A DNA stretch of 64,000 nucleotides from Candidatus Methanoperedens sp. (GTDB lineage: Archaea; Halobacteriota; Methanosarcinia; Methanosarcinales; Methanoperedenaceae): the NCBI GenBank assembly GCA_012026795.1, contig VEPM01000011.1:1-64000 (forward strand), read 5' to 3'. The position numbers and the translations under genes are program-made. Shown piece after piece: positions 4,871 through 16,062 of the stretch (position 1 is its first letter; each line of letters opens with the position of its first letter). Below the pieces are notes generated by a model. That model saw only the letters and a list, made by a program, of their open reading frames with translations. It was not told the DNA's origin and searched no databases.

Positions 4871-7039
4871 CTAACAGAGTTTCGTAATTATAATATCAAA
4901 GGATTTGGGGTCAACAAGCATTATCAAACGGCCAATCCTGTTATTCCCGAATTCAACATTAGTCGCAAGGGCAAACTCAACCTTTCCGGTAATATCTTTC
5001 AATACGGATTCTGCGATATGTGTTGATTGACCTGTCTTGAATGATGGGGCTTTTAATGATAAAGGAACTCCAATATATTCGGAAATTGCGCTAACATACT
5101 GCCCACCATAAATATTGGCAGTTTCCTTCAATGTGGAAGTAATGTCATCATTGAATTCCTTTATTGAAGTATCCGGGGTATTGCAAAGAAGTTCGTTAGC
5201 TACCTCAAGCGCATTCCCGCTTGAAACATACATTTGCATCTCGCCTTTCACATCTCCTTCCGGTCCATTCCCATGAAGTTCGACACTGATCATCACAATA
5301 TTATCACCAAGGCCGGTTATTTCATCATTCATTTCTTCAATTGGAATCGTACGAAGTTGAGAATGTTTCGACTCTGCTTCTTCTCCTGCTAACTGGGTGA
5401 CAGTTGAAGCTGCATTCGTCATACCTGACATACCGATATTACTTAAGAGATGGACTGCAGAATCCACATTTCCATCTGGAGTTGATATGCTTGCAGGTTT
5501 TGCTTTTACAGCTTCCACAGGCGGCTTTATTTCTGGCTCAGGTATTTTTGGAGGTGCTGCCTGGACAGGTTCCTTAATTGGCTTAACATCAGTTTTTGTC
5601 TCTTTGGGTTTTTGTTCTGGTTTTGGCTGCTCAGGTATCTTTGGAGGGGCAGGGAGAGGTTCCTTAATTGGCTTAACTTCAGCTTTAGTCTCTTTGGGTT
5701 TTGGTTCTGGTTTTGGCTGTTCGGGTATCCTTGGAGGGGCAGCCTGAAGTGGTTCCTTAATTGGCTTAACATCAGTTTTTGTCTCTTTGGGTTTTGGTTC
5801 TGGTTTTGGCTGCTCAGGTATCTTTGGAGGGGCAGGAAGAGGTTCCTTTATTAGTTTAACTTCAGCTTTTGTCTCTATGGGCTTTGGTTCAGGTTTGATT
5901 ATCTTAGCTTCCGGTTCAGGTTCTGATAATTCAATTTCCTGGTTTTCTTCTTCATACCCATATTCCTGTTCTGGTTCTTTGGGTATTTCCCTTACTGGTC
6001 CTTTATTCCTGCGAGAAATAATCTTCCTGGTGATAACCCTCTCTTCCGGGACTTCAATATCAATTTCACAGGTTTCATCAATTTCAGAAATATCTCTCTC
6101 GGATTGACCTAATCCTGTTTCGTCAGGTAGATCATATTCAGCTGGCTTTGTCTTTCTTGAATGTTTTATTTTCGTCTTTTTCTTGGTACCTTCGGTTCTC
6201 TTAATATATTTTGGTCCCGAATCACTCCTGTCTATTTCCCGTTCAATCTTGATCTTATTATTATCCCCATTTGCCCCTGTCCCTGCACTTGCCATTTGCA
6301 GCCATACAGAACTTGACTTTCGTTCACCATTTGTGTTCTCTTTATATTTGAATATAATATCGATAGATACAAGACCATTGGAATCGTCTTTTAACCCCAA
6401 TACGATCTTTCTTACATCATCTTCTGATAATGGATCACCTGTATCTTTTACCTGGACATTTCTTGAAAACCTGGCCATATTCTCATAATCTGTCTGGGTG
6501 TCAGCATCTTCTACTCTTGATATATAATTACACTCCATATCCGGTGGAACTTCAATCTCAATCAGGGGATTGTCCACAATATCAGGAAGGTCAGCATCCT
6601 CACAGTTTCGCCACCTGTCACTTTCATTAGATTCTATTCTTGCTATTGCTTCCCGCGCATGTTTTCGGAGTTCTGTTGAACCGTTCTTCCTGGCAGATCT
6701 TAATACTGTTAAGGCACGTTTATCACCAATGCGCCCCAGTGACCATGCCGCATTTATCCTGACGTTTTCAATCGGGTCGTTCAAAAGTCCGATCAGGGGA
6801 AGAACAGCTTTCACATGTCCTATTTCTCCAAGAGCCCATGCAGCGTTTGTACGGATATGAACATCATCTATCTCAAGAAATCCTATTAGAGGAGATATTG
6901 CCTTCCTTGTCCTCAGTTCCCCCAGCATGCGTATCGCTTCACGGCACTCCTTTATATCGCCGGATTCAAGAATATTCAGCAACCCTTCAATATCCCGGCG
7001 TTTTTTCATGTCTCTTAAATCAGTATAATCTAAAGGCAA
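4871..7039 (-). CDS. HEAT-repeat / proline-rich / CheC-like fusion protein
   Basis: The 722-residue protein has three parts. Residues about 10-135 are HEAT repeats (RTNAAWALGEIG, RINAAWSLGRIG). Residues about 230-530 are charged, low-complexity and Pro/Lys/Glu-rich, including four near-identical 30-31 residue units. Residues about 535-722 resemble CheC/CheX-type phosphatases: NIGMSGMTNAASTVTQL, a second half-site NDDITSTLKETANIYGG, and a conserved C-terminal fold. CheC proteins dephosphorylate CheY in chemotaxis, but no che genes are adjacent. The fusion points to a scaffolded signalling or adaptor role (inference). It is a single gene on the minus strand, convergent with the FAD oxidoreductase. 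Confidence 0.75.
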   Translation of the reverse strand: MPLDYTDLRDMKKRRDIEGLLNILESGDIKECREAIRMLGELRTRKAISPLIGFLEIDDVHIRTNAAWALGEIGHVKAVLPLIGLLNDPIENVRINAAWSLGRIGDKRALTVLRSARKNGSTELRKHAREAIARIESNESDRWRNCEDADLPDIVDNPLIEIEVPPDMECNYISRVEDADTQTDYENMARFSRNVQVKDTGDPLSEDDVRKIVLGLKDDSNGLVSIDIIFKYKENTNGERKSSSVWLQMASAGTGANGDNNKIKIEREIDRSDSGPKYIKRTEGTKKKTKIKHSRKTKPAEYDLPDETGLGQSERDISEIDETCEIDIEVPEERVITRKIISRRNKGPVREIPKEPEQEYGYEEENQEIELSEPEPEAKIIKPEPKPIETKAEVKLIKEPLPAPPKIPEQPKPEPKPKETKTDVKPIKEPLQAAPPRIPEQPKPEPKPKETKAEVKPIKEPLPAPPKIPEQPKPEQKPKETKTDVKPIKEPVQAAPPKIPEPEIKPPVEAVKAKPASISTPDGNVDSAVHLLSNIGMSGMTNAASTVTQLAGEEAESKHSQLRTIPIEEMNDEITGLGDNIVMISVELHGNGPEGDVKGEMQMYVSSGNALEVANELLCNTPDTSIKEFNDDITSTLKETANIYGGQYVSAISEYIGVPLSLKAPSFKTGQSTHIAESVLKDITGKVEFALATNVEFGNNRIGRLIMLVDPKSFDIIITKLC
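5527..5892 (-). repeat. Higher-order tandem repeat inside the HEAT-CheC gene
   Basis: Four units encode ETK(A/T)-(E/D)VK-IKEP followed by PPKIPEQPKPE-like residues. Units alternate between a 30-residue type (LPAPPKIP) and a 31-residue type (QAAPP-IP), so the true DNA period is about 183 bp. For example, the same segment recurs near 5632 and 5815. This pattern indicates duplication of a two-unit block. Confidence 0.8.
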
Positions 7040-7239
7040 TTTAACTCCCTCTCTGGGGTAATAATCGATTATTTATCATCATTGATACATCTGCTTGAGT
7101 CTAAAGACATATTTCCCTTCACACAAATATAAATGAGGGTGTGAAGTAGGGTATCAAAAAATAACTATTAAAAAATAAAATATAAATCCAGACCTGACCC
7201 CGTATGTCATAATCTGGTTATTTTCACGTTAAAACTAAT

Positions 7240-7590
7240 TTAATGATGAGGTGACTCTTCTTTTTCGGCAATTCGCCTTTTTAACGTGTCTTCACAGGCT
7301 TCAAAACAACTTTCACATATTGCTTTGTTTGAATCCCTGTGATAGGGTTCCTGGAATATGGGTATCTCGACTGTCACCTGGAATAAAGGCACATTCCTTG
7401 TGCCGCACAGGTCGCATTTTTTTGCCTTTATGGGAACCCGGTTGATGTTTGCCTCATGACACCTGTTAAGACATTCCTCGTTTATGCCTCTCCACGTCCC
7501 TTTCGGATAAGCGAGCAGTACACGTTCGTCTTTTACTTTTACCGGGCAAAGGGTTGGTCTTGCTGCACCACATAATTCACAATCTGCCAT
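7240..7590 (-). CDS. fpoO: F420H2 dehydrogenase subunit FpoO
   Basis: Last gene of the fpo operon. The 116-residue cysteine-rich protein has CxxC pairs near residues 4-7 (CELC) and in CDLC, plus further Cys in CLNRC and CESCFEAC. Methanosarcina FpoO is a small iron-sulfur subunit unique to this complex; here the Cys pattern could also bind zinc. The ATG at 7590 is preferred because AGGAG lies 10 bases upstream; a GTG at 7599 overlapping the fpoN stop has no usable spacing. Identification relies on position and Cys pattern. Confidence 0.8.
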   Translation of the reverse strand: MADCELCGAARPTLCPVKVKDERVLLAYPKGTWRGINEECLNRCHEANINRVPIKAKKCDLCGTRNVPLFQVTVEIPIFQEPYHRDSNKAICESCFEACEDTLKRRIAEKEESPHH

Positions 7591-7595
7591 AATTA

Positions 7596-9071
7596 TCACA
7601 CTCCTAAAGCTTTAGCCGCATTGATCGCCATCTGTATGAACGGTTCAGGATACAGGCCAATTCCGATCGTACCTATCACCGCAAGAAGGATAGCAATCAC
7701 ATAGGGAGCAGGTTCTTTTATTCTTTCGCCATTTGGCGGCAGCACATACATATATTTTATGACCCTGGCATAATAATATATGGATAGTGCACTGTTTAAA
7801 ATTGCAATAATCACAACAATTAAGAGCCAGGTGCTTGCCTGGCTTGCTGCTTCTACCATTATTGAATAGAACAGTACGAATTTCCCGATAAATCCTGCTG
7901 ATGGCGGTATTCCTGCCAGGGCCAGGAAAAATATGAACAGGGACAATGCGGTTATTGGCGCACGTTTTCCAAGCCCTGCAAAATTCCCTAAATCATCTGT
8001 GTTCTTTGCATCCTTATTATCTTTCAAAACCATATAGCTGACAACTGCCACAGCAATGAATGCGCCTCCTTTCATGAGGGCATGGCCAAGCGCAAGAAGT
8101 ACGCCTCCGGCGACTGACATTTGTGTCATCACCACAAAAGCAAGTGAAATATATCCAGCCTGGGCTATGGATGAATATGCAAGCATCCTCTTGATGCTGC
8201 GCTGTGAGATTGCTACAACGTTGCCATAAGTCATGGTTATTATTGCAAGTATTGCAAAAGTATACTGGATATCCACTCTGATCGCCACTAATGCCAGGAT
8301 AAGAACCCTGAATGCTGCAACAAATCCCATCTTTTTTGAACCTGCTGCAAGCAGGGCAGATACTACGCTTGGTGAACCTTCGTATGTATCAGGAGCCCAC
8401 ATATGGAATGGCACAAGCGCCATCTTGAAACCAAATCCTGCAACAAGGAAAATCATCGCCAGTATCCCGAGAGAGCTTTCTGCAATGAGATGAGTCGTAT
8501 TAAAGAATTCAATTATCGCAGGAATATTGGTTGAACCGGTTATTCCATAAATAAGCGACATGCCGAACAACATCAATGCAGATGATATTGAACCTATTAT
8601 GAAATATTTCAATGCAGCTTCAAGTGAAGCAGGGTTCTTTTTCTCAAAACCTGCAAGTACGTATGTTGACATGCTTGCAAGTTCAAAACCTACAAATAAT
8701 GCTATCAGGTCATTTGCCGATGCCACTACCATCATTCCGACCGTAGACAGGAGAAGAAGTGCATAATACTCATCCTGATTGCGATTATTCTTAAAATATT
8801 CGATAGAAGCAATGACTGCTATTAATGAAACTACTATGAATATTAATTTGAAAACCTGGGACAAAGGATCAATAACCAGGGAATCATAGAAGAAATTTGT
8901 CTTCCCGGTCATCCCGTTACCAAGAACATATACAAGTGAAGCCACAAGTCCTGCTGCGCTCAAGTATCCAAACATATTCTTGGATTTATCGCTTACCAGT
9001 AAACCCAGTAGTATAATTACAAAAGCCAGTATGATCAGCAGTATTTCAGGAAGAAGTAAAGTAAAATTCAT
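7596..9071 (-). CDS. fpoN: F420H2 dehydrogenase subunit FpoN (NuoN-like)
   Basis: A 491-residue polytopic membrane subunit of the proton-pumping F420H2:methanophenazine oxidoreductase, homologous to complex I NuoN and Mrp-type antiporters. Family blocks include FVGFELASMSTYVLAG, the functional Lys region AALKYFIIGS, and PFHMWAPDTYEGSP. It overlaps fpoM by the 4-base ATGA arrangement. Its length is normal. Confidence 0.96.
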   Translation of the reverse strand: MNFTLLLPEILLIILAFVIILLGLLVSDKSKNMFGYLSAAGLVASLVYVLGNGMTGKTNFFYDSLVIDPLSQVFKLIFIVVSLIAVIASIEYFKNNRNQDEYYALLLLSTVGMMVVASANDLIALFVGFELASMSTYVLAGFEKKNPASLEAALKYFIIGSISSALMLFGMSLIYGITGSTNIPAIIEFFNTTHLIAESSLGILAMIFLVAGFGFKMALVPFHMWAPDTYEGSPSVVSALLAAGSKKMGFVAAFRVLILALVAIRVDIQYTFAILAIITMTYGNVVAISQRSIKRMLAYSSIAQAGYISLAFVVMTQMSVAGGVLLALGHALMKGGAFIAVAVVSYMVLKDNKDAKNTDDLGNFAGLGKRAPITALSLFIFFLALAGIPPSAGFIGKFVLFYSIMVEAASQASTWLLIVVIIAILNSALSIYYYARVIKYMYVLPPNGERIKEPAPYVIAILLAVIGTIGIGLYPEPFIQMAINAAKALGV

Positions 9072-10585
9072 GTTATCACTCCTTTTATTCCGGTAACAAA
9101 CTGAAGTAGCGAAGTCGCACTTGTAGTCATCATATCAAGCACAGGGTTCGGATTCAGTCCGAAGTATATGACCAGCAGGACAAGGATGGCCATGGAGGCT
9201 ATTTCATAGCTCGCCCCATCATGGATATGCCCCAGTTTTTCATTATATGTACCAAATACTGCTCTTTGCATGGCCCAGAGATGATATCCTGCTGTGAAAA
9301 CGATACCAAAGAGTGCAAGTATCACAAATGTCGGAAGTGTAAAATACGAGTTCACAAGAATGAGGAATTCAGCAACGAACCCGCTCATAGCCGGTAATCC
9401 CAGCGAAGCCAGGAACCCTGCCAGCATGACAAATGTCAGTTTTGGCATATATTTAGCTATGCCTCCCAGGTCATGGATTATCCTTGTTCCTGCAGAATGC
9501 TGGATCACACCGCATGACATGAACAGGATACCTGTTATGAGACCATGCGAAAACTGCTGGTACATCGCCCCGCTTACGGAAAGTGGAATAAGTGCAGCAG
9601 CGCCAAGGGTCACATAACCCATGTGGCTTATACTGGAATAAGCCACCATCTTCTTGAGGTCGCGCTGGGCCAGGGCCAGGAAAGTTCCATATAATATGCT
9701 GAGCACTCCGATTATAGCCATGATCGTGATCAATTTTCCTGGTGAGTCAGAATATGGCAGGATTGGAAGTATTACCCTGAAAAGGCCATAACCACCCATC
9801 TTGAGCAGCAAAGCAGCAAGTATGACACTGCCCGCTGTCGGGGCTTCAACGTGTGCATCAGGCAGCCATGTATGGAAAGGCACCGCAGGCATTTTGACAA
9901 GAAAACCAAACAATAACCCTAAGAATACAGCATCTTTTATAGATAATATGCCTTTCAATAGCCACCCGTCCATAACCTGATAGGATTTCAGGAGTTCAAA
10001 GATATCAAAACTCGGTTTTCCGGTTACATTGAGTGCGTTGAAGTAGAGCGTAAATATCGCAAGCAGCATAACCAGGCTCGCCACATGTGTATATATGAAG
10101 AACTTAATTGCAGCATAGTCTTTTCTCGGACCCCCCCAGATACTTATCAGGAAGTACATTGGTATGAGGACGATTTCCCAGAATATATAGAACACAAAGA
10201 AATCAAGTGAGGTGAAAACTCCCATAACACCTACCAGTTCAAGGAGTATCAAACCATAGAACTTGTTTGCCTGCTGTGTTTCACCCCATGCAAATATGAC
10301 TGTAAGCGGGATAATTATATTAGATAACAGTACAAGCGGCATACCTATCCCATCAACACCGAACTTTAAGTTCACTCCGATACTTGGTACCCAGGAGTAT
10401 GTTTCAAGGAACTGTATAGTGGATATTTTACTATCAAATCCCCAGAATAATATCAATGATAAAGCAAATGACGCCAATGATGTTACCAGGGCAACCGTAC
10501 GTGCCTGCTCACGGTTTTTTGTTAAGAATGTTAAGATCGCTCCAAGCAAGGAGATAACGATCATTAATGAAATTAAAGCTGCCAT
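9068..10585 (-). CDS. fpoM: F420H2 dehydrogenase subunit FpoM (NuoM-like)
   Basis: A 505-residue antiporter-like membrane subunit. Characteristic stretches are FYIFWEIVLIPMYFLI (the conserved Glu of transmembrane helix 5), AIKFFIYTH, PFHTWLPDAHVEAPT and KKMVAYSSISHMGY. It forms one of the three putative proton channels of the complex. Start and stop overlap both neighbours, consistent with translational coupling across the operon. Confidence 0.97.
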   Translation of the reverse strand: MAALISLMIVISLLGAILTFLTKNREQARTVALVTSLASFALSLILFWGFDSKISTIQFLETYSWVPSIGVNLKFGVDGIGMPLVLLSNIIIPLTVIFAWGETQQANKFYGLILLELVGVMGVFTSLDFFVFYIFWEIVLIPMYFLISIWGGPRKDYAAIKFFIYTHVASLVMLLAIFTLYFNALNVTGKPSFDIFELLKSYQVMDGWLLKGILSIKDAVFLGLLFGFLVKMPAVPFHTWLPDAHVEAPTAGSVILAALLLKMGGYGLFRVILPILPYSDSPGKLITIMAIIGVLSILYGTFLALAQRDLKKMVAYSSISHMGYVTLGAAALIPLSVSGAMYQQFSHGLITGILFMSCGVIQHSAGTRIIHDLGGIAKYMPKLTFVMLAGFLASLGLPAMSGFVAEFLILVNSYFTLPTFVILALFGIVFTAGYHLWAMQRAVFGTYNEKLGHIHDGASYEIASMAILVLLVIYFGLNPNPVLDMMTTSATSLLQFVTGIKGVIT

Positions 10586-12591
10586 TATGTCCCTCCATAT
10601 TTAAGCCTGAGTAAAACCAAAAGCAACGCTACTCCAAGTATTGTGATTGAAGCGTAATTCTGGACTACGCCTGTCTGCAATTTCCGGACTACTTCACCAA
10701 GCTTAAACAGTGTATTGCTTATAATATTGTCTATTATAAGCCAGTCAATGATCTTTCGGTCAATGAACTCTCCTGATTGGGCTGCAACATCATGTGTCAA
10801 TTTGACACCGATCAGATCTGCACCAATCTTTGGCTCATAATACCTGTTATATAACAGTTTATAAAGCGGATTCCCGGATGAAATGATCTTACTCATATCG
10901 ATCATTCGTTTGTTGTAAATCGCATATGATATCAGGAAACCCAGTACACCCACGATCACGGGCAGCAATACTAAAAATGCTGATGGGTGGAATGCCTCAC
11001 CTTCATGGACAGCTATGTTTACATCCATCAATTCAAAATTTTTCTCAAGATAACCATAGAAACCAACCTGGGAGAAACCAAACAGCAGGGCAAATATTGC
11101 CAGTATCATTAATGGTCCGGTCATCACTCCGGGTGATTCATGGGAATGCCTTTCAGAACGCGGCTTTCCTGTAAAAGTCATAAACCACAGCCTGAATATG
11201 TATATTGATGTCAGAAGTGCTGCAACAATGGCAAAGCCGTATGGGATCAGGTCATGTGTTACTTCCCCGTACTCTAATGCCCCTTCTATTATTGCATCCT
11301 TACTGAAGAAACCAGCAGTCCCGATATTCATGATTGGCATACCCAGACCTGCAAACGGAAAGCCAATACCTGCCAGTGCAAGTGCTGCTATTAACATGGT
11401 TGTGCCTGTGATCTTCATCTTGCTGAATAATCCACCCATTTCACGAATATCGTTGGTGCCAACCGCATGTATCACGCTTCCGGCACAAAGGAAAAGCAGT
11501 GCCTTAAAGAATGCGTGGCTCAAGAGATGGAACATGGATATTCCTACGGCTTTTGCTCCAAGGACAGTTCCGGCCGTCCCGAGTGCCAGCATCATGTAAC
11601 CAAGCTGGCTGACTGTCGAATAAGCAAGCACTCTCTTAATATCATTCATTACAAGTCCCATCGTTGCTGCAAAAATAGCAGTGAAACCACCTACATACGT
11701 AACAACCAGAAGCGCATCCGGCACACCCGCAGATATTGTTGACGGGGTTGCGACAAACATCGGGAATGTTCTTGCGACAAGGTAAACACCAGCCGTTACC
11801 ATTGTTGCTGCATGAATAAGTGCAGATACCGTGGTCGGGCCCTCCATTGCATCAGGCAACCAGCCATGAAGCGGGAACTGGCCGCTCTTACCTACTGCCC
11901 CGCCAAAGAAGAGAAGTGTGATATATGTTAATTGTGTCCCATCAATCAACGGAATGGCTTCAAACATTTTCCTGAATTGCAGTATGTAACTTTGCGATTC
12001 AAGAACAAGAGTCCCATTATCTACAAGCAGTTTCATATTTACATAGAGCAGTACGATCCCTGCAAGGAAAAGTACATCTCCTACCCTTGTAACAAGGAAA
12101 GCCTTCTTAGCTGCTGCCGCTGCCGATGGTTTGTGATACCAGAAACCTATCAGGAGGAACGAACATAAGCCCACAAGTTCCCAGGAAACGAAGAACTGGA
12201 GGATATTATCGGATAATATTACGCTTAACATTGCTGCTGTGAACAATGATGTTTCTGCAAAATACCGCGGTCTTGCAGGGTCATGCGCCATGTACCCGAC
12301 AGCATAAATGTGAATCAGCAGGCTTACAAATGAAACCATCATCAGCATTACTACAGCCAGCGGATCAATCAATATCCCAAGATTCATTCCCGCAAACCAT
12401 GGCAATGATTGCTGTACCGTTCCATCTGGATATATTTCAAGGAATATCCCGAACGAGATGATGAACGATCCTGCTATAGCCGCTATTGGGAGCAATGCCC
12501 CGCCTGAATAGAGCTTCTTTCCGAGGAAAAGAGTAAAAACAAACGCTATAACCGGTAATAATACTATTAGAGCTGCATAATCACCGAACAT
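10585..12591 (-). CDS. fpoL: F420H2 dehydrogenase subunit FpoL (NuoL-like)
   Basis: A 668-residue, largest antiporter-like subunit. It contains FFVSWELVGLCSFLLIGFW, GKSGQFPLHGWLPDAMEGPTTVSALIHAATM and KRVLAYSTVSQLGYM. The C-terminal extension matches the long lateral helix and anchor of NuoL, which couples the distal proton channels. It starts one base after the fpoK stop region and runs into fpoM. Confidence 0.97.
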   Translation of the reverse strand: MFGDYAALIVLLPVIAFVFTLFLGKKLYSGGALLPIAAIAGSFIISFGIFLEIYPDGTVQQSLPWFAGMNLGILIDPLAVVMLMMVSFVSLLIHIYAVGYMAHDPARPRYFAETSLFTAAMLSVILSDNILQFFVSWELVGLCSFLLIGFWYHKPSAAAAAKKAFLVTRVGDVLFLAGIVLLYVNMKLLVDNGTLVLESQSYILQFRKMFEAIPLIDGTQLTYITLLFFGGAVGKSGQFPLHGWLPDAMEGPTTVSALIHAATMVTAGVYLVARTFPMFVATPSTISAGVPDALLVVTYVGGFTAIFAATMGLVMNDIKRVLAYSTVSQLGYMMLALGTAGTVLGAKAVGISMFHLLSHAFFKALLFLCAGSVIHAVGTNDIREMGGLFSKMKITGTTMLIAALALAGIGFPFAGLGMPIMNIGTAGFFSKDAIIEGALEYGEVTHDLIPYGFAIVAALLTSIYIFRLWFMTFTGKPRSERHSHESPGVMTGPLMILAIFALLFGFSQVGFYGYLEKNFELMDVNIAVHEGEAFHPSAFLVLLPVIVGVLGFLISYAIYNKRMIDMSKIISSGNPLYKLLYNRYYEPKIGADLIGVKLTHDVAAQSGEFIDRKIIDWLIIDNIISNTLFKLGEVVRKLQTGVVQNYASITILGVALLLVLLRLKYGGT

Positions 12592-12592
12592 A

Positions 12593-12892
12593 TTACCACC
12601 TCAAGATATTGATATTGTCGAGATTGATAGTGTCCCGCAACCTGAACAATGCAACAAGTATAGCAAATCCGATGGCCGCTTCTGCTGCTGCTATGGCAAT
12701 TGAGAATATCGCAAACACCTGGCCTGCCGCATTATCATAGTAACTTGAGAATGCAACAAGATTAAGATTTGCTGAGTTCAGAAGCAGTTCTATGCACATC
12801 AGGATTTTGATCCCGCTTCTCTGTGTAATTATTCCATATACACCTATGGTAAATATTATTATCGAAATTAAGAGATATGAATATAACGACAT
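12593..12892 (-). CDS. fpoK: F420H2 dehydrogenase subunit FpoK (NuoK-like)
   Basis: A 99-residue protein with three membrane helices. It carries the NuoK hallmark Glu residues in [17 protein letters not shown] and [13 protein letters not shown]. The start at 12892 (MSLYSYLL) fits the family; the longer reading frame upstream overlaps fpoJ and lacks homology. Its place between fpoJ and fpoL is the canonical order. Confidence 0.96.
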
Positions 12893-12893
12893 T

Positions 12894-13145
12894 TTATGCC
12901 TCCTTTTTTGCGATATACAGGGCACCGATCAATGCTGCCAGCAACAACAGTGAAAGCAATTCAAAGGAAAAAATAAAATCGCTGAAAATCCCGCCCTTGA
13001 TATCGGGACTTCCTGCAATTTCCTCCATACTTATTGCATTTATTTCTTCATGCTTTGCAAGATCCGTATAACTGTTATCCAGGGCCATGAACAATACAGC
13101 AAACAACAGTAATGCTATCAATAAATTGAATGTCTTGTTGATCAT
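12894..13145 (-). CDS. fpoJ: FpoJ C-terminal half, separate gene (NuoJ-like)
   Basis: An 83-residue protein with two membrane helices, corresponding to the C-terminal part of NuoJ ([20 protein letters not shown]). In Methanosarcina the J subunit is also encoded by two consecutive genes, so the split is probably native and not a frameshift. It overlaps the upstream half by one base at 13145. Confidence 0.88.
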
Positions 13146-13390
13146 TATTCTTCCTCTCCCTTCCTGGTCAACATAATGGTGAATAATATCAGGGTTATAA
13201 CCGCCCCAACATAGACAAGTACCTGTACCCAGGCAAGGAACTCCGCTTCAAGGAGTATGAAAAGACCGGCGGTTCCAATGAATGTACCTGCAAGATATAT
13301 TGCACTGTGAACTAATTTGTTTGACCTGACCACCATAATCGTTGATATGATCGTGAGGATTGCAATAACCGGAAATACAATATCTATCAT
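13145..13390 (-). CDS. fpoJ: FpoJ N-terminal half, separate gene (NuoJ-like)
   Basis: An 81-residue protein with three membrane helices. It contains NuoJ-like SNKLVHSAIYLAGTFIGTAG and LEAEFLAWVQVLVYVGAV, the latter including the pi-bulge region of the family. Its start overlaps the fpoI stop by 4 bases. With the following 83-residue gene it makes one J subunit equivalent. Confidence 0.92.
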   Translation of the reverse strand: MIDIVFPVIAILTIISTIMVVRSNKLVHSAIYLAGTFIGTAGLFILLEAEFLAWVQVLVYVGAVITLILFTIMLTRKGEEE

Positions 13391-13803
13391 TGTTTCACCT
13401 CTTTTTTGAATAATAATCTATCAGGGCCATACACAAGACTCTCACGGGTGTAATCCGCAGTTTCATAATTCCCGGTCATTTTCATAGCGTTCATGGGGCA
13501 TACATCCACACAGAGGCCGCAAAACATGCACATTCCGATATTGACCTGGGGATACCATCTGGTTTTATACTTGACTATCTGGATAGTCCCATTCGGACAG
13601 TTTACTTCACATATCCCGCAGCCTATGCAGGCGTCCTCATCTACTGCATGCAGTCCCCTGAATCTTGGTGATACTTTCATTTTCTGGTAGGGGTACTGAA
13701 CAGTCACAGTCGGCCTGTTACCGATGCGTAATATATGTTTCATTGTAACAATGAGCCCTTGAATTATCCCGACCATTGTCCAGTTCTTTGTTATCCAGGT
13801 CAT
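13387..13803 (-). CDS. fpoI: F420H2 dehydrogenase subunit FpoI (NuoI-like, two [4Fe-4S])
   Basis: A 138-residue ferredoxin-type subunit that carries electrons towards FpoB. Two complete cluster motifs are visible: CIGCGICEVNCPNG and CMFCGLCVDVCPMNA. The N-terminal amphipathic region resembles the membrane-docking helix of NuoI. It overlaps fpoH and fpoJ by 4 bases each. Confidence 0.96.
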   Translation of the reverse strand: MTWITKNWTMVGIIQGLIVTMKHILRIGNRPTVTVQYPYQKMKVSPRFRGLHAVDEDACIGCGICEVNCPNGTIQIVKYKTRWYPQVNIGMCMFCGLCVDVCPMNAMKMTGNYETADYTRESLVYGPDRLLFKKEVKQ

Positions 13804-14909
13804 TGGAACACTCCTACGGTCAAAAGGAAACCGGTGACCAGTAAATTAAGTAAAGCAAGAGGTATCATAATTTTCCATCCCAGGCTGAGGAGTTGATCTA
13901 TCCTTACCCTTGGTACTGTATCTCTCAACCACATCGCAAAGAATATTACTGCATAGGTTTTAACCAGAAATACTCCAAGCGACACCAGTGGAACCAATGC
14001 TGCCGGAAGTAATGAAATGTATGGGAATGACCATCCTCCAAGGAACAGCGTTACAACAATTGCAGATACTGAGAATAAATGAGCATATTCTGCAAGGAAG
14101 AACATTGCAAATTTCATTCCGCTGTATTCAGTGAAGAACCCTGCAACAAGTTCCTGTTCAGATTCCTGGAAATCAAAAGGTATGCGCCCCATTTCAGCGA
14201 TAGAAGCAATAAGGAATAAAACGAAACCCAGAGGCTGCAGGAATATGAACCATTTCGGGATAAAGCCAAACCATGTGCCATTCTGCGCGGTTACAATTTC
14301 AACAGTGCTCAGGGAACCTGTAAACAAAACAATAGCAATCGCAGAAATGGCCAGCGGTATTGTATAGCTTATATCCTGGGCTACGGCCCTCATCGCTCCC
14401 ATCAAAGAATATTTATTATTTGAAGCCCAGCCTGCAAGCAAAATCGCAATTGGTGACACGGCAGATATAGCAATCAGATAGAGAAGCCCCACACTTAGAT
14501 CTGATATTATCAGTGATTCGCCAAACGGCAGTGGAATAAATATAAGAAGCGCCGGTATGAACACTAGAAAAGGCGCAAGTGTGAAAACCCACCTGTCAGC
14601 TTTTGCAGGAATTATATCCTCTTTTCCGATGAGTTTTACACCATCCATGACTGGCTGGAGCAATCCTCTCGGGCCTGTTACCATCGGACCGTATCTTGCC
14701 TGCACCATAGCAACAACCTTACGTTCCATCCATGTAAGGAACATGATCGTCAGAAGTGCAAAAACAAATAGGATCGCAATCTCTACGAGTACTATAATGA
14801 TCCTCAAAACATACTCGATTCCTAATGTCTTGAATGTGTTATTTACAGGTTCATAAATCCCTATATAATTCAAGGTAAACACAATAAGTTCGTAAGCATT
14901 TGCAAACAT
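13800..14909 (-). CDS. fpoH: F420H2 dehydrogenase subunit FpoH (NuoH-like)
   Basis: A membrane subunit forming the quinone-site interface, here for methanophenazine. Hallmarks are FLTWMERKVVAMVQARYGPM, PFDFQESEQELVAGFFTEYSGMKFA and WLRDTVPRVRIDQL. I place the start at 14909 (MFANAYELI), just after the fpoD stop at 14914; an upstream in-frame Met at 14945 would add 12 residues overlapping fpoD. About eight membrane helices are expected. Confidence 0.96.
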   Translation of the reverse strand: MFANAYELIVFTLNYIGIYEPVNNTFKTLGIEYVLRIIIVLVEIAILFVFALLTIMFLTWMERKVVAMVQARYGPMVTGPRGLLQPVMDGVKLIGKEDIIPAKADRWVFTLAPFLVFIPALLIFIPLPFGESLIISDLSVGLLYLIAISAVSPIAILLAGWASNNKYSLMGAMRAVAQDISYTIPLAISAIAIVLFTGSLSTVEIVTAQNGTWFGFIPKWFIFLQPLGFVLFLIASIAEMGRIPFDFQESEQELVAGFFTEYSGMKFAMFFLAEYAHLFSVSAIVVTLFLGGWSFPYISLLPAALVPLVSLGVFLVKTYAVIFFAMWLRDTVPRVRIDQLLSLGWKIMIPLALLNLLVTGFLLTVGVFQ

Positions 14910-14913
14910 TATA

Positions 14914-16062
14914 TCACCGGTCCACATCGCCAAGAACAACATCAATGGTCCCGAAGGCCGCTATCAGGTCAGGGATCATAAGTCCTTCCACCATTTTAGG
15001 TATAGCTGTAAGATTACAGAAAGAGGGTGAACGTATTTTGATCCTGTAGGGTTTTATGGTTCCATCACTTACAATATAAAATCCTAATTCACCTTTAGGC
15101 GCCTCGATCCTGCTGTAAACCTCGCCAGGCGGCGGAGTGAATATCCTCGGGAAATACGTGGAAACTGCTGTTGAAGCGCCTGTCATCGGGGCTATCCCAT
15201 ATTTAGCCAAACTTACCGGTTTTGCCTGAGGCATCTGATCTACTGCCTGTCTTAGAATATGCAGGCTTTCTCTCATCTCATCAATTCTTACCATGTATCT
15301 GGCGAAGCTGTCCCCTTCATTGCGCACGCATACCTTGAAATCAAGGTCAGGATATACGGAATATGGCTCCAGTTTCCTTATATCGTAATTCACGCCATGA
15401 CCGCGAAGCGAGGGACCTGTCATACCATAATTGATAGCATCCTGCGTGCTCATTACCCCTATACCTTTCATTCTCCCCATGAAAATCTCATTACCGCTGA
15501 TAAGCTGCTCGTAATCATCAATGCGCTTTTCCATATCATTTATGAACTCGTTGAGTTTTGGTATGAAGCCCTCAGGCATGTCTTCCCTTACTCCTCCGGG
15601 CCTGATATAGTTAAAAGTCATGCGGGCTCCGCATAACATCTCGAATAACTGCAGGGCATTCTCCCTTTCCCTGAATCCGTACATTATCATAGTTGATGCG
15701 CCAAGGTCAAGAAGAAGAGAGCCCAGCATTACAAGATGGTTCACTATCCTGTTCAGTTCAAGAGTGATAACACGTATGTACTCTGCTCTCAACGGAACCT
15801 CTATTCCTGCAAGTTCCTCCACAGCCTTGGTATAAGCGTAATTATTGGGAAATGCTGAGATATAATCGAGCCTGTCTGTGTAAGGCACGAACTGCATATA
15901 CGTCTTCATCTCTCCCAGCTTTTCAGTCCCCCGATGAAGATATCCCATGACGATTTCACATTTCCTGATTATCTCCCCGTCCATGGTTAACTTAAACCTC
16001 AATACACCGTGTGTACTGGGATGAACAGGACCCATATTAATTAGAAGTTCGTCTGTTTTCAT
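14914..16062 (-). CDS. fpoD: F420H2 dehydrogenase subunit FpoD (NuoD-like, 49 kDa)
   Basis: A 382-residue peripheral subunit related to the large subunit of [NiFe] hydrogenases and complex I NuoD. It shows the N-terminal NMGPVHPSTHGVLRF signature with the quinone-site His, then GYLHRGTEKLGE and the C-terminal FGTIDVVLGDVDR ending. Together with FpoB and FpoH it forms the methanophenazine reduction site. Spacing to fpoC is one base. Confidence 0.97.
   Translation of the reverse strand: MKTDELLINMGPVHPSTHGVLRFKLTMDGEIIRKCEIVMGYLHRGTEKLGEMKTYMQFVPYTDRLDYISAFPNNYAYTKAVEELAGIEVPLRAEYIRVITLELNRIVNHLVMLGSLLLDLGASTMIMYGFRERENALQLFEMLCGARMTFNYIRPGGVREDMPEGFIPKLNEFINDMEKRIDDYEQLISGNEIFMGRMKGIGVMSTQDAINYGMTGPSLRGHGVNYDIRKLEPYSVYPDLDFKVCVRNEGDSFARYMVRIDEMRESLHILRQAVDQMPQAKPVSLAKYGIAPMTGASTAVSTYFPRIFTPPPGEVYSRIEAPKGELGFYIVSDGTIKPYRIKIRSPSFCNLTAIPKMVEGLMIPDLIAAFGTIDVVLGDVDR

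Follow-up and report, generated by a model that had tools for sequence, protein, structure and literature searches.

In a 64-kb stretch of Candidatus Methanoperedens DNA (the window), between the end of an fpo operon and a convergent gene for a FAD-dependent oxidoreductase, lies a single open reading frame (4871..7039, minus strand) coding for a protein of 722 amino acids. Members of this genus oxidize methane with nitrate or metal oxides. The protein is built of HEAT repeats, a conserved beta-rich domain, a low-complexity linker and a CheC domain. The original prediction had placed HEAT repeats and CheC in one chain, and the uninterrupted frame, the Pfam and NCBIfam matches and the fold comparison all bear this out. 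The frame opens with TTG, and a ribosome-binding site GGGAG (7045..7049, minus strand) can be read in the sequence 5 nt upstream. Since a TTG with a Shine-Dalgarno-like AGAGG or GGGAG recurs at the same place in most named relatives, this start is probably genuine. Unbroken genes of the fusion code for 558-743 amino acids. The neighbouring Fpo (F420H2 dehydrogenase) operon (7240-16062, minus strand) includes a gene for an FpoO-like small Cys-rich protein, and it has stayed syntenic with the fusion in several relatives (L038-L045).

Domain layout of the protein

The HEAT / HEAT_PBS repeats occupy residues 17-139 (6623..6991, minus strand; Pfam HEAT_2 E=4.9e-22, HEAT_PBS 3.3e-14). About 300 low-complexity residues had been predicted between these repeats and CheC, which is true only of the second part of the interval, some 260 residues long; it is preceded by a conserved domain of about 100 residues (residues ~155-252; 6284..6577, minus strand). 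This domain was recognized by its conservation, with invariant Y, S, D, R, G, S and W among the fusion members, and by six predicted beta strands. The search of Pfam gave no match of note and that of Foldseek no significant fold match. A CheF-like PH domain was considered for this region and found unsupported: the AF2 model, which is of moderate confidence only (mean pLDDT 69), has its six strands without a C-terminal helix, and nothing significant was returned by Foldseek.

The linker (residues ~256-521; 5477..6274, minus strand) is rich in Pro, Lys and Glu, shows low conservation and occupancy in the alignment, and varies in length among relatives, even between close ones. It contains a 90-bp in-frame DNA tandem repeat in 3.9 copies (5536..5896, no strand assigned; TRF). 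The low complexity, the poor conservation and the tandem repeat together make this region look like a tether.

The C-terminal domain and its active sites

Residues 522-722 (4874..5476, minus strand) were assigned to a CheC domain of two halves by NCBIfam, by AF2 and Foldseek, and by alignment with the CheC of the same genome. The NCBIfam profile CheC_Thtogales aligned end to end over 528-721 (E 1.5e-12) and was matched by all 20 family members, the NCBIfam value for the CheC domain here being 8.5e-14; the score of the NCBIfam CheC equivalog stayed far under its cut-off. Pfam matches over the whole protein were to CheX (2.9e-5) and CheC (6e-4), both below the gathering cut-offs: 20.1 bits for PF04509 (CheC), with a cut-off of 22, and 24.5 bits for PF13690 (CheX), rising to 27.4 with the domain alone, with a cut-off of 27. 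The CheC of Thermotoga maritima was matched at 7.6e-6 (phmmer against PDB), and the identity to the CheC of the own genome was 27% over 186 columns (E 4e-14).

The AF2 model of residues 522-722, made with 20 sequences, had a mean pLDDT of 84 and a pTM of 0.82. Against PDB, Foldseek placed CheC (3QTA, 2F9Z, 1XKR) at the top, then FliY, CheX and FliM, and nothing else had E < 0.001. The E values of the CheC, FliY and CheX matches went from 6.9e-11 to 1e-5; superpositions on CheC gave TM 0.57-0.67 with a high rmsd (8-9 A). These are the proteins against which the original prediction had proposed to compare the fold. A failure to match CheC would have refuted it; the comparison instead gave CheC, and the two-half domain that it described is borne out. 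As modelled, then, the C-terminal domain has a CheC fold made of two similar halves.

Canonical CheC proteins have two ExxN sites, and the consensus of the CheC active site, as compared here with the second half, is D/S-x3-E-x2-N-x22-P. The alignment with canonical CheCs puts N534-I-G-M537 (5429..5440, minus strand), from the first half of the fusion domain, at the position of the first ExxN. There, the canonical LKEVGN reads LS[D/N]IG followed by M: D or N stands in place of the E, and the N is replaced by M, with L, I, H or T as rare variants of single members. The second site, S635-x3-E639-x2-N642-x22-P665 (5045..5137, minus strand), aligns with a canonical ExxN and is intact; none of the residues S635, E639, N642 and P665 varies among the 20 members, in contrast to the freely diverging linker. 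The expectation that active-site residues are retained is thus right for the Glu/Asn pair of the second half and wrong for the half marked by 'TNAAS', where both catalytic residues are lost in every member. Since the first ExxN is lost throughout and the second is invariant, the domain is, as judged from its sequence, of a single-site CheC type and not a two-site CheC.

A domain with one of its two ExxN sites left, in a genome with a second CheC, could be catalytically idle and merely bind CheY or another response regulator, which the protein would titrate or localize. The activity of known CheC is also weak, that of Bacillus subtilis being 6% of that of FliY (PMC3513319). On the other hand, none of the 20 members departs from the remaining site or from its flanking S and P. 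Such constancy is not easily accounted for unless the site catalyses or binds CheY-P, and we find such an idle scaffold very improbable.

Another difference appears in the region that we take, from its place in the alignment, to be equivalent to that of the acidic residue D149 of B. subtilis CheC, at the interface with CheD. In this region, placed by alignment and not by structure, D-[M/I] of several canonical CheCs reads T-G in the fusion. This replacement suggests that CheD binding may be weaker or absent in the fusion, and would speak against a role in CheD-dependent adaptation.

Distribution and gene neighbourhood

The scan of 84,980 species genomes with family-specific peptides gave 19 named loci, belonging to Candidatus Methanoperedens, Methanoperedenaceae, or sequence-close uncultured archaea / Methanosarcinales. 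At class level (238 genomes), CheC matches from outside the family were all in open frames of at most 257 amino acids. As far as searched, the HEAT-CheC fusion is restricted to Methanoperedenaceae. A viral or mobile origin was also considered and set aside, no relative having been found in one IMG/VR scan.

Within the family we have analysed 34 genomes, and the comparison with CheA was made on those at least 90% complete. The full-length fusion is found in 17 of the 18 with CheA and in none of the 7 without it (Fisher one-sided 1.7e-5, relatedness ignored). The exception is G002, where only the HEAT and beta part is present. This gene (L079:1725-2597) is a natural truncation: the HEAT and beta domains remain, the linker and CheC are gone, and a CBS-domain gene comes next. 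Among the less complete genomes, G011 (87% complete; L080:401-1660) has CheA and arlCDE, and the fusion is missing from its expected place beside arlCDE; in G027 and G032 (63-67% complete) CheA is present and the fusion was undetected. One apparent case of the fusion without CheA (G023) was discarded, as its contig breaks off within cheB and the missing CheA probably reflects a gap in the assembly.

Mapped on a tree of rpoB from 21 members of the genus, CheA shows a minimum of four changes. Out of four independent pairs, three have the fusion changing together with CheA and none has it changing in the opposite direction; in the fourth there is no difference in the fusion, which G011 lacks despite its CheA. 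With only three informative pairs the sign test gives p 0.25, the sample being too small for significance. Since G011 is without the fusion and G002 without CheC, the fusion, or its phosphatase part, is dispensable in some lineages. Archaellum-type ArlD/E genes are present also in the seven genomes without CheA and, because these also lack the fusion, the link of the latter is with chemotaxis and not merely with the archaellum.

The original statement that no che genes lie nearby holds for the 64-kb window, in which no further che or arl gene was found. It does not hold beyond it: the source genome has an archaellin-arlGFHIJ-cheYBARCD cluster on contig 26 and a block with arlCDE, a KaiC-like gene, MCP and CheW on contig 9, the fusion being on a different contig from arlCDE and che, and in most relatives the fusion is beside arl/che genes. 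Its commonest neighbour is arlCDE (the product has both FlaC and FlaD/E domains), which lies within 6 kb and convergent to it in 12 of the 21 genomes that have the fusion. The arlCDE side is constant, while the opposite side varies by clade (the fpo operon or another block). Beyond arlCDE, the relatives have genes for a KaiC-like ATPase, a conserved protein of ~140 amino acids, MCPs and CheW. In M. nitroreducens (L077/L078, G015) the cluster is unbroken, with the fusion at the end of an arl-che supercluster that continues with arlCDE, KaiC-like, CheW, MCP, archaellins, arlGFHIJ and cheYBARCD. In one MAG (L054) the fusion is flanked on one side by a response-regulator/CheB cluster and on the other by an MCP gene.

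The KaiC-like ATPase gene adjoins arlCDE, in divergent orientation, across Methanoperedens (G000:C9:35894 region, L072:8140-10248; L041, L042, L047, L053), and in most loci is followed by the gene of the ~140-aa protein, which has no Pfam match. Both are candidate accessory genes of the switch.

The original prediction could not place the architecture. As the fusion tracks CheA across genomes and, in roughly half of those that carry it, adjoins arlCDE, it can now be assigned to the chemotaxis/archaellum system, and the same two observations rule out an orphan gene outside chemotaxis.

A different place within this system would be the chemoreceptor array, where the CheC domain would act in CheC/CheD/CheY-P adaptation and the HEAT repeats would be a scaffold of the array, away from the motor. 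Along these lines, MCP and CheW genes come next in the same block in several relatives, and in Halobacterium the HEAT_PBS protein OE2401F, needed for switching, binds CheD and CheF1 (PMC2666748, PMC3579733); in B. subtilis the main role of CheC is to bind CheD (PMC3513319). However, a canonical two-site CheC already adjoins CheD in the same genomes as the fusion, and the motif of the CheD-interface region is not retained in the latter. We consider this receptor-side role quite improbable.

A putative role at the archaellum switch

The reading that we prefer, and to which we give an even chance, is that the fusion is a chemotaxis-archaellum component, a tethered phosphatase with a single site that would act on CheY-P at the archaellum switch and may have assumed part of the role of CheF, the archaeal adaptor between CheY-P and ArlCDE. 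The HEAT and beta domains would be the docking half, placed near the switch through ArlCDE or a partner of it, and the long, length-variable Pro/Lys-rich linker would be the tether by which the CheC domain reaches CheY-P at the switch. This domain would bind CheY-P and hydrolyse it at the single intact ExxN, and the switching signal would thereby be ended at the motor, as by FliY in B. subtilis. The separate two-site CheC of the che operon would keep the CheD-coupled adaptation, in a division of labour between the two proteins. So far as we are aware, a CheY-P phosphatase located at the motor has yet to be demonstrated in any archaeon, and the arrival of CheY-P at the archaellum motor and its departure from it are known only for archaea with CheF.

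CheF was not detected in our searches of the family. PF04283 matched in none of the 34 Methanoperedenaceae genomes, and was found in five genomes from elsewhere in the order, outside this family, and in the controls M. jannaschii, H. volcanii and M. acetivorans; no CheF-like gene is seen within the arl-che cluster of M. nitroreducens, and the fusion protein itself has no Pfam match to CheF (PF04283 / DUF439). One genome (G049) has a divergent CheF between cheW and cheY (L075:14590-15390), which was missed by PF04283; its matches to those CheFs that Pfam does recognize had E values of 4e-15 to 5e-11. Because Pfam had missed it, we have used this protein as a second query, again with no match in the 34 family genomes. 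The case shows that a Pfam-based absence of CheF in this order needs a second test.

These results give room to another explanation, namely that the fusion replaces CheF, receiving CheY-P and passing the switching on to ArlCDE, besides or instead of hydrolysis. The HEAT and beta domains would correspond to the PH domains of CheF, and the CheC domain (of the FliM/FliY fold) to its CheY-P-binding C-terminal domain. Apart from the absence of CheF in both searches and in the M. nitroreducens cluster, it is in favour of this explanation that FliM was also returned by the fold search with the CheC domain, and that CheF, the coupler of CheY-P to ArlCDE in archaea so far studied, docks on ArlCDE (PMC9126983), whose genes are the commonest neighbour of the fusion. 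Nevertheless, G011 has CheA without the fusion and G002 lacks the CheC half, and the family may have a CheF too divergent to be recognized. Moreover, in G037, from another family, CheF was undetected and the fusion is absent, so that absence of CheF is not tied to the fusion. We take the replacement to be possible, if unlikely. That the Methanoperedenaceae swapped CheF for a fusion that both receives and hydrolyses CheY-P at the ArlCDE switch, which would make it an independently evolved counterpart of FliY/FliM with the same CheC fold, is in our opinion rather unlikely. The che cluster of G037 (L073:13319-16654) contains three CheC-type genes, with some active-site residues changed.

CheC domains, HEAT proteins of chemotaxis and motor-located CheC-type phosphatases (FliY) are already known. 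In the open literature searched we have found no description of the single-chain fusion, of its beta domain, of its confinement to Methanoperedenaceae or of its occurrence in che-positive genomes that lack a detectable CheF. The fusion unites HEAT_PBS and CheC, types that belong in Halobacterium to one pull-down network together with CheF, in a lineage with no detectable CheF, and it makes a motor-side phosphatase, possibly an alternative adaptor, directly testable.

In Halobacterium, CheC2 binds CheF1/2, which was read by the authors as dephosphorylation of CheY-P at the motor (PMC2666748, PMC3579733). With its ties to genomes that have che genes and to arlCDE, the fusion would suit a corresponding position. 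Our case resembles OE2401F in having HEAT_PBS repeats in a che context, and the interaction set of OE2401F and CheF1/2 in Halobacterium likewise includes a CheC; however, in Halobacterium these are separate proteins with CheF, OE2401F consisting of HEAT repeats only, whereas in Methanoperedenaceae HEAT and CheC are in one chain and CheF was undetected. The OE2401F type (HEAT_PBS alone, beside cheF) does not describe the fusion, which has HEAT_PBS plus further domains, in genomes where no cheF was detected. The domain resembles CheX in its one ExxN site and in its best Pfam match, but its length and the order of its halves are as in CheC, and in the fold comparison CheC and FliY score above CheX. 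CheC (Thermotoga maritima 1XKR/2F9Z; Haloarcula rrnAC0528 3QTA) is the closest match in sequence and fold, with the two-half fold and the SxxxExxN-x22-P of the second site; the fusion differs in its HEAT and beta domains joined by the tether, in the loss of the first site, in the changed motif of the CheD region and in its position outside the che operon. From FliY, of the Gram-positive and Thermotoga switches, it is distinguished by the lack of a FliN/SpoA domain (no C-terminal one was found in the Pfam scan), by the archaellum instead of the flagellum and by the putative HEAT/beta docking half, but it shares with FliY the fold (4HYN) and the presence of a CheC-type phosphatase domain within a larger protein proposed to be at the motor switch.
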